From positions 1 to 35,263 of the forward strand of contig CAJJBM010000005.1 in assembly GCA_905182445.1 (NCBI GenBank): a stretch of 35,263 bases of DNA, read 5' to 3'. The notes beneath the pieces are model-generated. The model saw nothing but the letters and a program-made list of their open reading frames with translations, was not told the DNA's origin and searched no databases. Each line of letters opens with the position of its first letter. The first letter of the stretch is position 1. Both the position numbers and the translations under genes were made by a program. Of the stretch, positions 29,409 to 34,692 are shown piece by piece. The stretch is from Pelagibacteraceae bacterium AG-422-B15 (GTDB lineage: Bacteria > Pseudomonadota > Alphaproteobacteria > Pelagibacterales > AG-422-B15).

Positions 29409-30122
29409 TTAAGCTATTTTAAATGAATTGTTACGAGTAATGGGAATTAAATCCTTTGCAGGACCTTCTTGAGCGACTAAACCATCATCGATAATCAAAA
29501 CATGATCTGACATTGAAATTGCATCTTCAAAATCATGGGAGACAATAATTGCGGTAGTTCCATTATCTTTAAAAATTTTTTTTGTTTCATCTCTTAATTC
29601 AGATTTCAAAGCATGATCTAAAGCGCCAAATGGCTCGTCCATTAATAAAATTTTTGGATTAGGTGCCATAGCTCTAGCCATTGCAACTCGTTGTTGTTCG
29701 CCACTTGAAATTTCGTGAGGATAATTATTTGCATAAACATCTACTTTAAAAAGCTTTAGTAAATTTAAGGCAGTTTTATATTTTTCATCTCTTCGACCTT
29801 TTAAACCAAATTCAACATTCTTTATTATAGTTAAATGAGGGAATAAAGCCCTTTCTTGAACTACTAATCCTATATCTCTTTTTTCTGTTGGCACAAAATT
29901 TTTGCTATCAGAAACAATAGTATCACTGATGTTTACTGTTCCACCTGATTGATTTTCTAAGCCAGCAATAATTCTTAGTAGAGTTGTTTTACCACATCCT
30001 GAGGGTCCTAAAATAGAAACTATTTCGCCTCTTGATACATTCAAATTGATACCCTTAAGAACTTCCATATCAGTATTAAATGAATGTCTTAGATTTTTTA
30101 TCTCAAGAATAATTTCGGTCAT
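29409..30122 (-). CDS. fbpC: Fe3+ ABC transporter ATP-binding protein (short, no C-terminal regulatory domain)
   Basis: 237 aa; SILGPSGCGKTTLLRIIAGLE, PHEISSGEQQRVAMARAMAPNPKILLMDEPFGALD; follows an Fe3+-type permease. Confidence 0.88.
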   Translation of the reverse strand: MTEIILEIKNLRHSFNTDMEVLKGINLNVSRGEIVSILGPSGCGKTTLLRIIAGLENQSGGTVNISDTIVSDSKNFVPTEKRDIGLVVQERALFPHLTIIKNVEFGLKGRRDEKYKTALNLLKLFKVDVYANNYPHEISSGEQQRVAMARAMAPNPKILLMDEPFGALDHALKSELRDETKKIFKDNGTTAIIVSHDFEDAISMSDHVLIIDDGLVAQEGPAKDLIPITRNNSFKIA

Positions 30123-30175
30123 ATGGGTTTATTAATGAATAACTATTTTTTTAATAAACAAACATATACATTAAA

Positions 30176-30190
30176 TGATAATGATTATCA
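30176..30190. promoter_or_regulatory. Fur box (7-1-7) TGATAATGATTATCA; contains the fbpB stop codon
   Basis: Exact match to the TGATAATnATTATCA Fur consensus. Confidence 0.85.
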
Positions 30191-31837
30191 ATAGCTTTGA
30201 TAATGATTATCATTATTTCTATAACCTGGCCTAGATTTGACTATTAACCTAGATAAAATGATGATTGGTAATAGTCCTACTCCTACTATTGCAATTGATG
30301 GGGCTGCAGCATCAAACATTCTTTCTTCAGCTGCATAAATATAGGTTGATATTGCTAGAGTATCATAGTTGAAAGGTCTTAATATCAAGGATGCAGGCAA
30401 TTCCTTTATAACTTCAGATACAACAAGTATCATGCTGGTCAAGAAACTAGTTGTTAGTAATGGAAGATGTATTTGGGTTAATAACTTCCACCCTGATGTA
30501 TTTAGTGTCTTGGCTACATCATCTAATCTATTGTTGATTCTCAAAAAACCAGACTCGATTGTTGAATTTGCTAATGCAAAGGACTTAATTACAAATGCCA
30601 AAATTAATCCAACCAAACTTCCCGTTAGAACAAATTCGAGGTATTCCCTAAATAGAAGGTTATCCATGAATACAAGCAATTGAGAAACGCCTAAAGCTAA
30701 AATTAAACCTGGCACAGCATAACCGACAGTTAAAAAAGAACTTAATATATTTAGAATTTTATTTTTTCTATATCTAATAGAAAAATTAATTATAATAGCA
30801 AGTACCGCACATATTATTGCTGTTAAAATAGCTAAGTAAAATGTATTCCATGCAGTAGTAATAAATTTTTCATTAAAAAAATCTAGCTTATAATTTAGAG
30901 CCCAATAGGCAAGTTGGATGTTTGGAAGTACAAATCCAATAAAAACTGGAATAGTACAAAATAATGATGCAAAAATATTTTTGCTACCTTTTAGTTTTTC
31001 AGCAGCAATAGGACTAAATACATTTGAACCAGACGAATATCTATTTTTTCTTCTCGAGTATTTTTCTAGAATTAAAAATGTAATCACAACTATAAGTAAA
31101 AGAGCTGCTAATTGTTTCGCTGTATGAAAATCATATAATCCAAACCATGCACTAAAAATACCAGTTGTAAATGTGTTTACAGAAAAGTGTTCAACAGCTC
31201 CAAAGTCAGATATTGTTTCCATAAGCACCAACATAAGTCCCGCAATTATTGCTGGCCTAATTGATGGAATGCCTAACTTATAAAAAACTTGGAATTTACT
31301 AAATCCTAATGTCCTTCCTACTTCTAATATAGATCGTGATTGATTAATAAATGCCATTCGTGAAACTAAATATACATACGGATACAAAGTAAATGAAAAG
31401 ACAATAGCGGCACCGTAGACATTTCTAAGTTTTGGAAAGAAAATAAATTCATGTGGCAATGAAAAAATATCTCTAATTAAATTATTAGCAGTTCCGTAGC
31501 TATCAAATAATCCTGTAAATGTGTAAGCTAGTATATATGGTGGAACTGCAAATGGTAAAAGTAAAGCCCACTCTAAAATATTTTTTCCTGTAAAATTATA
31601 AGTAGTAACTAGCCATGCGCTTCCAACGCCTATTATAAGCGTGCCAATACTAGTGCCAATAATAATGAATATTGTATTATATATATAATTCGAGAGAGTA
31701 TAATTATATATATGTGTCCAATTATCTGAATAGTCTCCAAATAGACTGCTAATTATCCAAATAACAGGCACGACAAACAATGCAAAAAGAATAGTCGGTA
31801 AAATGATCCAGGGATCTAAAAGATTTTTATAAAACAT
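30188..31837 (-). CDS. fbpB: Fe3+ ABC transporter permease (two fused permease domains)
   Basis: 549 aa; two sets of TM helices with EAA-loop-like segments (RTLGFSKFQVFYKLGIPSIRPAI; KTLNTSGWKLLTQIHLPLLTTSFL). Confidence 0.9.
   Translation of the reverse strand: MFYKNLLDPWIILPTILFALFVVPVIWIISSLFGDYSDNWTHIYNYTLSNYIYNTIFIIIGTSIGTLIIGVGSAWLVTTYNFTGKNILEWALLLPFAVPPYILAYTFTGLFDSYGTANNLIRDIFSLPHEFIFFPKLRNVYGAAIVFSFTLYPYVYLVSRMAFINQSRSILEVGRTLGFSKFQVFYKLGIPSIRPAIIAGLMLVLMETISDFGAVEHFSVNTFTTGIFSAWFGLYDFHTAKQLAALLLIVVITFLILEKYSRRKNRYSSGSNVFSPIAAEKLKGSKNIFASLFCTIPVFIGFVLPNIQLAYWALNYKLDFFNEKFITTAWNTFYLAILTAIICAVLAIIINFSIRYRKNKILNILSSFLTVGYAVPGLILALGVSQLLVFMDNLLFREYLEFVLTGSLVGLILAFVIKSFALANSTIESGFLRINNRLDDVAKTLNTSGWKLLTQIHLPLLTTSFLTSMILVVSEVIKELPASLILRPFNYDTLAISTYIYAAEERMFDAAAPSIAIVGVGLLPIIILSRLIVKSRPGYRNNDNHYQSY
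30198..30212. promoter_or_regulatory. Fur box (7-1-7) TGATAATGATTATCA; inside the fbpB 3' coding sequence
   Basis: Exact Fur consensus, identical to the box at 30176-30190, 22 bp centre to centre. Confidence 0.85.
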
Positions 31838-31895
31838 GGCTGCTTAGTTATAAATATAAAATTAGGATACAGTATATTAAATATAAACTAAACAG

Positions 31896-31958
31896 CCGTC
31901 TTAACTGTTATTCAACTAATCTAAAGACGGATACTAAAGACGGTATTAGTTGAATAAC
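31896..31958 (-). other. fbpA-fbpB intergenic repeat/RNA element (14-bp perfect inverted repeat, duplicated loop, downstream complement)
   Basis: gttattcaactaat(31907-31920)/attagttgaataac(31945-31958); CTAAAGACGG at 31921-31930 and 31934-31943; ccgtctt at 31896-31902 complementary to both copies. Confidence 0.6.
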
Positions 31959-31967
31959 CAAGGCTTA

Positions 31968-32006
31968 GTAACTTTTTGAGGGGAAAAATAAATCCTCAAA
32001 GTTATT
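31968..32006 (-). other. Stem-loop immediately 3' of fbpA
   Basis: Minus strand AACTTTGAGG ... CCTCAAAAAGTT with a 2-nt bulge, starting a few nt after the fbpA stop; no T run. Confidence 0.45.
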
Positions 32007-32007
32007 A

Positions 32008-33033
32008 TTACCAGCCCGCTCTCTCCATCAGCTTAACAGCATCAGGATTGAATTCTCCATAACTGCTCACAGGTGTCTGATCTTGTTTAAAATCAGTACC
32101 AAATTGAGCAATTAGCGGATGAGCATTCACACCATCACGTATTGGATATTCAAATGAGTTTTTTACAATATGATTTTGTGCCTCTTCAGAAAGTAGGAAG
32201 TCAATCAATTTAACAGCATTATGTGTATTTGGTCCTTTTAATAAGCCAATACCACTTACGTTAATATGTGTTCCTCTTCCATTTTGACTAGGAAAGAAAG
32301 GTACTACTTTATTAGCAGCTGCTTGTTGCTCTGTACCTTTTTTACCAGATAACATTAAAGCAATATAGTAGCTGTTAGCTACCGCTATATCAGCTTCACC
32401 ATTTGCTACGGCCATAATCTGAGCTCTATCATTGCCCTCTGGTTTTCTGGCCATGTTAGCTACCAGTTCATTTGCCCATGTTTCCGTTGCATCAACACCA
32501 TGATTAGCTACAAGTGATGCTACAAGTGATTGATTGTACATGTTACTTGACTTTCTAATTACAACTCGACCATTCCATTCAGGATTAGCCAAATCTTCAT
32601 ACGTCAAACCATCTAGTTCGGCCTCAGTAACAGTTCTTGGATTGTAATACATAATACGTGCACGTTTTGCTAAAGCAACCCACTCATTGTTTGGACCACG
32701 TAAGTTTTTTGGCACAACACTATCAACTGTGCTGCTAGTAATTTTTTGGAACAAGCCTTCTTTTTGAGCTTTCCACAAATTTCCAGCATCTACTGTTACA
32801 AATAAATCAGCAGGAGAGCTATTGCCTTCAGTAATAATTTGTTGCATTAATGCTTTACCTTTTCCAGATACGACATTTACTTTAATTCCAGTTTCAGCAG
32901 TAAATTTTGAATAAAGTTTTTCATCGGAGTCATAATGTCTTCCGCTGTAAAGATTAACTTCATTTGCAAATGAGCTAGCTGAAAAAATAAGCACAGCCAT
33001 GCTAACTTGTAAAATTCTAGTAATTAAATTCAT
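32008..33033 (-). CDS. fbpA: Fe3+ ABC transporter substrate-binding protein (FutA/IdiA/FbpA type)
   Basis: Start corrected from 33108 to ATG at 33033 (MNLITRILQVSMAVLIFSASSFA, signal peptide). NEVNLYSGRHYDSDEKLYSKF, GEADIAVANSYYIALML, SGIGLLKGPNTHNAVKLIDFLLSEEAQ. Confidence 0.93.
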   Translation of the reverse strand: MNLITRILQVSMAVLIFSASSFANEVNLYSGRHYDSDEKLYSKFTAETGIKVNVVSGKGKALMQQIITEGNSSPADLFVTVDAGNLWKAQKEGLFQKITSSTVDSVVPKNLRGPNNEWVALAKRARIMYYNPRTVTEAELDGLTYEDLANPEWNGRVVIRKSSNMYNQSLVASLVANHGVDATETWANELVANMARKPEGNDRAQIMAVANGEADIAVANSYYIALMLSGKKGTEQQAAANKVVPFFPSQNGRGTHINVSGIGLLKGPNTHNAVKLIDFLLSEEAQNHIVKNSFEYPIRDGVNAHPLIAQFGTDFKQDQTPVSSYGEFNPDAVKLMERAGW

Positions 33034-33086
33034 TTTTATCTTCTTTCTATTAATTATTAATATAGTAAAAAGAATATATACAAGAT

Positions 33087-33101
33087 TGATAATGATTATC
33101 A
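33087..33101. promoter_or_regulatory. Fur box (7-1-7) TGATAATGATTATCA upstream of fbpA
   Basis: Exact Fur consensus, third identical copy; an overlapping weaker 7-1-7 unit (TGATTATCAATATCA, 33093-33107) is offset by 6 bp. Confidence 0.87.
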
Positions 33102-33195
33102 ATATCAATTAATAAAAATTAAAGTATTGATAAAATTGAGAAAATTTAATCTAATTTAGAACTATTTTAAACAATGGTGAGATTATTAGTAATAA

Positions 33196-33210
33196 TGATA
33201 ATCAATATCA
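33196..33210. promoter_or_regulatory. Fur box (7-1-7) TGATAATCAATATCA upstream of fbpA
   Basis: One mismatch to TGATAATnATTATCA; in the gap between the di-heme gene stop and fbpA. Confidence 0.7.
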
Positions 33211-33225
33211 AGACTCAAAAATTTA

Positions 33226-34692
33226 TTACAAGGAGTTAATAAATCTTATTAATTGATCAACTTCACTTAGGGATAGTTTTAAAATTTTATTTTTTGAATT
33301 CTCTGCTTCTCCCCCATGCCATAAAATTGCCTCTAAAATATTTTGAGCTCTACCATCATGTAAGAAATTTGTATGTCCATTAACTACATTTGTTAATCCA
33401 ATTCCCCATAATGGAGGAGTTCTCCATTCACTACCTGTGGCATTAAATTCATTTAAGTTATCAGCAAGATCTTTCCCCATATCATGTAACAAGAAATCTG
33501 AGTAAGGCCATATTACTTGTTCAGACAAAGAAGGATTTTCTATATCTCTAGAAGTGGTAAATTTTTGCACATGGCAAGAATTACATCCTGACTCAAAAAA
33601 TATTTTTTTTCCTTTTAAAACTTCTTTATTATTTACATCCCTTCTTCCAGGTGGAGATAAATGTTTTTGATAAAAAATCATTAAATCAATCTGTTCATTT
33701 GAAACCTCAACATTATCATAATCAGATGAATTGCCTGTGGCGATAGACTGACAATCAATTTGAATTTTTGAACAGTTATTTGATTGTGAAGAAAATGTAC
33801 TTGATAGACCCATATCATGGTAAAGCGCATCGGTTGTTTGTTGAAGTATAGATGGTTGCGAAGCTTTCCAACCAAATCTACCTAATACAAGCTCGTCTGT
33901 AATTTCATTTCTAACTCTATTAGCTTTGCCTGATACTCCATCTTTATCTTCATCGTTAGGATCTATATTCATCAAGATATCTCTATCGCTTATTCCTTCA
34001 ATTAACCCAAGCCCTGTAATTGGTTGAGCAATTCTTGCAGAAATTTGAATGTCCGGATGTAATTTTCCATATTTTAAATTAGAAATAGAAAAATTTGGCT
34101 TTCTAAGGTTTACAACTTTACCATTATCAAATGCTATTGGAAAATAATCATATTCAATCATTACCTTACCTTCAGGCATTACTCCTTCAGTTGCAAAATC
34201 ACTTAGCTGCGAACCATAGTTAGGATCTGGAAAAGACTTTATTTGAAGTGTTTCAAGTTGTTTTTTTTGGAATTCATTTTGTGGAGGTATAGCTAAAGCA
34301 ATTACTAAAGATATCGCATCATCCCCAGGCCAACTTAAGCTTGGTGGGTGTCCTCTACCATCATTTATATGACAGCTTTGACAAGAGTCGGCGTTAAAAA
34401 ATGGGCCCAATCCATCTTTTGCTTTATATAAAGTACTCGGCGGAAGCCAAACTCTTCTAAACATAGAATTTCCAACAAAAAAATTTATTCTGTTTTCTGT
34501 TCTTATGTTTTTTAACGGTAGTGAGTAAGCATTTTTATTTTTAACAAATACTGTTCCAGTGCCTCCCGTGAAAGCTTCTCCTATTTCTGAAACATCAAAA
34601 TTATTGTCAGCAATAGAGTACTTTTGAATACATATTGCTATAAATAAATTTATTGTAATTATAGTTAAGAGATTAAAACGTCTAATTGTCAT
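33226..34692 (-). CDS. Di-heme c-type oxidoreductase family protein (DUF1111 / DHOR), exported
   Basis: 488 aa; signal-like N-terminus; two CXXCH sites (SCQSCHINDGRGHPP and SGCNSCHVQ); RRVWLPP...DGLGPFFNADSCQSCH; HTNFLHDGRAQNILEAILWHGGEAE. Confidence 0.9.
   Translation of the reverse strand: MTIRRFNLLTIITINLFIAICIQKYSIADNNFDVSEIGEAFTGGTGTVFVKNKNAYSLPLKNIRTENRINFFVGNSMFRRVWLPPSTLYKAKDGLGPFFNADSCQSCHINDGRGHPPSLSWPGDDAISLVIALAIPPQNEFQKKQLETLQIKSFPDPNYGSQLSDFATEGVMPEGKVMIEYDYFPIAFDNGKVVNLRKPNFSISNLKYGKLHPDIQISARIAQPITGLGLIEGISDRDILMNIDPNDEDKDGVSGKANRVRNEITDELVLGRFGWKASQPSILQQTTDALYHDMGLSSTFSSQSNNCSKIQIDCQSIATGNSSDYDNVEVSNEQIDLMIFYQKHLSPPGRRDVNNKEVLKGKKIFFESGCNSCHVQKFTTSRDIENPSLSEQVIWPYSDFLLHDMGKDLADNLNEFNATGSEWRTPPLWGIGLTNVVNGHTNFLHDGRAQNILEAILWHGGEAENSKNKILKLSLSEVDQLIRFINSL

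Follow-up and report, generated by a model that had tools for sequence, protein, structure and literature searches.

Why would two exact Fur boxes lie inside an iron-transport operon, at the very end of one of its genes, where they are read partly as protein and partly as the stop codon? SAR11 bacteria (Pelagibacterales) rank among the most numerous cells in the ocean; iron often limits them, their regulators are few and their intergenic gaps very short. The locus considered here lies on a 35,263-nt stretch of a SAR11 draft genome (722 kb, 62% complete); we refer to this whole stretch as the window. It carries fbpA, fbpB and fbpC in that order, all on the minus strand and co-directional, as one operon (Table 1). 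The closest named relatives of its FbpB are from Candidatus Pelagibacterales AH-269-J06 (94%) and Pelagibacteraceae AG-900-M14 (89%). FbpA and FbpB both match solved iron-transport structures, and the Fur boxes therefore adjoin iron-uptake genes.

Table 1. Features of the fbp locus, in window coordinates
Feature	Position	Strand	Remarks
fbpC, ABC transporter ATP-binding protein, 237 aa	29409..30122	-	
Putative fbpC promoter: TTGATA (30191-30186), 17-bp spacer, TATATG (30168-30163)	30163..30191	-	conserved in three genomes
fbpC-proximal Fur box, TGATAATCATTATCA on minus strand	30176..30190	-	exact; invariant in three congeners
fbpC-distal Fur box, within fbpB codons 542-547	30198..30212	-	exact; one substitution in 1/3 congeners
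fbpB, ferric-iron ABC transporter permease, 549 aa	30188..31837	-	closest solved structure is an iron ABC permease
fbpA, periplasmic ferric-iron-binding protein	32008..33033	-	matches solved ferric-iron-binding proteins, E 5.6e-104
fbpA promoter, TTGATA-N18-TATATT	33073..33102	-	found by scan; exact box 33087-33101 overlaps
Exact Fur box before fbpA	33087-33101	-	third exact copy; overlaps fbpA promoter
Distal fbpA Fur box, one mismatch	33196..33210	-	without mismatch in the two congeners, where it lies at -168 and -144

Two Fur boxes at the fbpB-fbpC junction

The inverted repeat TGATAATnATTATCA, a Fur box of the 7-1-7 type, occurs in two exact copies at the end of fbpB and in a third before fbpA. 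A pattern match confirmed both junction copies where the initial annotation had placed them, and its account of their geometry was borne out: the boxes are 22 bp apart from centre to centre, the fbpB TGA (30190-30188, minus strand) falls inside the fbpC-proximal box, and 53 bp separate this box from the fbpC ATG (fbpC start 30122). The distal box had been read as encoding the residues NNDNHY, a range that is off by one. It covers (N)DNHY(Q), that is, the third base of Asn542, the codons for Asp-Asn-His-Tyr and two bases of Gln547, and leaves the first N outside. The two boxes on the fbpA side were absent from that earlier argument.

The three exact copies are the only ones in the whole draft genome, so that all of them lie in the fbp locus and two form the tandem pair. 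Exact boxes are limited to fbp in both fbpB-bearing congeners as well. With at most one mismatch allowed, 4 boxes are counted in the window where dinucleotide shuffles predict 0.04, and a 2-Mb third-order Markov simulation contained no exact box. At up to two mismatches, the genome has 34 matches versus 24 for a reversed-pattern control, only a mild excess.

Two Fur-family proteins are encoded in the genome. One is a Fur that scores above the Pfam cut-off and has Magnetospirillum Fur as its best structural match (E 2e-43), with the VYR motif aligned; in the Magnetospirillum protein this motif holds the DNA-reading residues Tyr56 and Arg57 (PMC4506495). The second is Irr-like and passes the IrrA cut-off. 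We rejected Irr as the regulator: despite the presence of the Irr-like protein, the motif is of the Fur 7-1-7 type. Identification of the tandem boxes as a Fur operator, as initially proposed, is a prediction that is strongly supported by the confinement of exact boxes to fbp, by a Fur with a structural relative solved on DNA, and by the way the boxes have stayed conserved while the sequence around them diverged.

We also considered and rejected a wider Fur regulon. Beyond the window there are four one-mismatch boxes, three of which lie within coding sequence and look like chance matches. The fourth is found just 3′ of irr, 7 bp past its stop codon. In one congener, G003, the sole exact box has irr on one side and a rubrerythrin-like gene on the other (the two loci are L007:1501-1515 and L114:1501-1515).

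Origin of the operator and constraint on its sequence

The tandem operator occurs at the same position and with the same 22-bp spacing in all three fbpB-holding genomes of the genus, a small sample made up of the genome under study and two congeners (G001 and G004); G001 has one substitution in the distal box. It was found at none of 117 junctions outside the genus, which come from 42 genomes of other genera in the same family and 75 genomes of another family. The best near-match among these junctions has two mismatches and lies 61 bp inside the fbpB of G048. The expectation that relatives would keep the boxes thus holds within the genus and fails in every other one. Because the operator is absent from sister genera and from the outgroup family, the simplest reading is that it was gained in the ancestor of the genus and that one box, read in translation, supplies the new FbpB tail.

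The gene ends differ accordingly between the two groups. Outside the genus, fbpB either overlaps fbpC or ends within a few bases of it, and FbpB stops ~8-10 residues earlier, at SRPASRD or similar. Within it, the gap measures 57-65 bp across the three genomes and FbpB continues as SRPGYRNNDNHYQSY, with a genus-specific tail after Arg540. Gain of the operator would have pushed the two genes apart to this distance and given FbpB both its new stop codon and its extra tail.

Two further observations concern the distribution of the tandem and of the transporter. An identical 37-bp tandem (TGATAATGATTATCATTAGTTTTGAGATTTATTATCA) is present at G104:C2:8332-8368 and in G141, G164, G314 and G377, all of them other SAR11. 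Neither FbpA nor FbpB had a match in two members of the genus (G002 and G003) or in two further genomes of the family (G005 and G008). With G003 98% complete, the transporter seems to be missing from at least one congener, which must acquire iron otherwise.

We compared variation at the operator with that in the rest of fbpB across the three genomes. Third codon positions vary at 316 of 535 sites overall versus 1 of 13 in codons 538-550, which comprise the new tail and the stop. Within the 37 bp of the operator 2 columns vary, compared to a mean of 10 for fbpB windows, and none of the other 1,600 windows of 37 bp scanned in fbpB has two or fewer. A codon-matched test, which uses conserved Asn, Asp, His, Tyr and Gln codons only and is weak when taken alone, gave 26/67 two-fold codons varying in the body of the gene versus 0/8 in the tail (binomial 0.02, Fisher 0.045). 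Judged by this pattern of substitution, selection acts on the DNA at the operator.

The tail residues are conserved because the DNA is selected, and their conservation is hence no evidence that the tail has a function. In the predicted structure of FbpB, pLDDT is below 50 over residues 481-549, which is too poor to judge the tail. We suggest that the tail is probably a passenger. The earlier description of protein tail and operator as dual-use sequence is literally true at the level of the DNA; for the protein, nothing points to a function of the tail, and relatives do without it.

A putative fbpC promoter and competing explanations

What would a Fur operator do at this position? The initial annotation had proposed that fbpC has a Fur-controlled promoter of its own. 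The conserved TTGATA-17-TATA arrangement at the junction lends this indirect support, with the reservation that the second hexamer is imperfect (TATATG here, TATAGA and TATAAA in the two congeners). The first hexamer is formed by the proximal box and consists of the last base of Tyr549, the stop codon and TA. Within the window, 3 of 76 TTGATA sites have a TATA 16-18 bp further on. The promoter scan missed the putative fbpC promoter because the last base of its second hexamer is not T.

The putative promoter resembles the fbpA promoter, having the same build with a box over TTGATA, and many fbpA promoters in the family have TATA a few bases past the box. The cores TATTGATAATCATTATCA are identical between the junction and the fbpA promoter. 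We considered whether the junction site had been copied from the fbpA promoter; the flanks of the two sites showed no clear alignment. From these features we infer promoter activity before fbpC, with a predicted transcription start at ~30156, ~34 bases before the fbpC ATG.

Taken together, the boxes are probably a Fur-repressed internal promoter for fbpC, with an operator gained in the ancestor of this SAR11 genus. Under iron excess, metal-loaded Fur dimers would occupy both boxes, on the same helix face and two turns apart, and the bound Fur would cover the first hexamer and the spacer of the fbpC promoter. When iron is scarce, Fur would leave, and fbpC, which encodes the ATPase, would be transcribed from this site as well as by read-through of transcripts begun at the fbpA promoter.

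A more elaborate possibility, which we consider unlikely, is that the sequence does three jobs at once, as a Fur operator in the DNA, an intercistronic hairpin in the mRNA, and the new C-terminus and stop of the permease, and together with the conserved, structured 66-bp leader of fbpB splits the operon into three separately set parts. We also find it quite improbable that the boxes act mainly in the mRNA, pairing into a stem-loop of ~17 pairs with the fbpB stop that protects or separates the fbpB and fbpC messages. Such a hairpin is predicted in three of three congeners (-14.4 to -15.9 kcal/mol, z -3.5 to -4.1), and the A to G substitution in G001 retains pairing as G-U. However, any direct repeat of a palindrome folds in this way, so that the stability follows automatically from two palindromic boxes. 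An RNA stem, moreover, needs neither palindromic arms nor a match to the single box on the fbpA side, yet both features are present. The junction has no T-run either, and no intrinsic terminator (a G+C-rich stem plus a T run) was called at 30165-30225, which led us to rule out a terminator between fbpB and fbpC. A role of the hairpin in the message could explain part of the conservation, perhaps in addition to the operator.

We give equally little credence to a roadblock, in which Fur bound under iron excess would halt read-through from the fbpA promoter into fbpC, and fbpC would have no promoter of its own. The operator does lie between co-directional genes of one operon, and two adjacent sites would hold Fur firmly, but a roadblock leaves the conserved TTGATA-17-TATA and its likeness to the fbpA promoter unexplained, and it would add little to an upstream promoter that is already Fur-controlled. 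That the boxes arose by chance or are neutral sequence passed down with no regulatory function is hardly credible: the mild excess of matches at up to two mismatches in an AT-rich genome would allow it, but in three genomes no exact box falls outside fbp, boxes with at most one mismatch far exceed their expected number in the window, and conservation is strong.

Known Fur sites and expression along the operon

Fur boxes of the 7-1-7 type precede Fe3+ ABC transporter components in most SAR11 genomes (AEM 2016 survey, PMC4771312), and a study of strain HTCC1062 reported no classic Fur box (PMC3090418). The junction boxes share the 15-bp 7-1-7 motif, the transporter and the bacterial order with those of the survey, and differ from them in forming an extra, internal tandem before the ATPase gene that overlaps the end of the permease gene. 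Other SAR11 genera have tandems ahead of fbpA (for example loci L183-L187) that likewise consist of two boxes 22 bp apart, in the same register and in the fbp operon; those have 2-3 mismatches and stand at the operon head, whereas the tandem of the genus under study is exact and internal. The closest solved relative, Fur of Magnetospirillum gryphiswaldense, binds the P. aeruginosa Fur box, which has the same GATAATCATTATC core (PMC4506495), and the structure on that box has two dimers on one overlapping box, in contrast to the two separate boxes 22 bp apart described here.

A Fur box at the fbp operon is therefore known, and what is new is the internal position, the exact tandem form, the restriction to one genus and the overlap with a gene end. 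Among the abstracts listed by literature searches, none gave a clear precedent for a Fur operator that covers an intra-operon stop codon, a negative that carries little weight. Operators overlapping the end of the upstream gene are not rare in compact genomes.

The gap between fbpA and fbpB has features of its own. The 66 bp that lead up to and include the fbpB start codon (31835-31900, minus strand) form a block with 100% identity to one congener and 92% to the second, despite widely diverged fbpB third positions; this block folds as a long hairpin abutting the fbpB ATG. The other 57 genomes searched gave only short weak matches to this block, and Rfam gave no credible match in 29900-33300. 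We regard the block as a candidate fbpB leader or attenuator. Between fbpA and fbpB, at ~31900-31960 on the minus strand, there is another inverted repeat, TTATTCAACTAAT ... ATTAGTTGAATAA; it is found in the genome under study and in G001 and not in G004.

In P. ubique, iron limitation raised the transcripts of the binding-protein gene sfuC 16.0-fold, those of sfuB 10.4-fold and those of the ATPase gene sfuA 5.0-fold, an induction that declines along the operon (PMC2864753). We hypothesize that an internal Fur-controlled promoter would offset such falling expression along the operon by lifting the last gene. The structured fbpA-fbpB gap in this genus could deepen the fall.

If the promoter reading is true, the ATPase in this genus is controlled apart from the binding protein, and such separate control would bear on how iron-stress marker genes are read from ocean transcriptomes. 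The junction would also offer a clean case of a regulatory site gained without spare DNA, by overwriting a gene boundary and the end of a protein.
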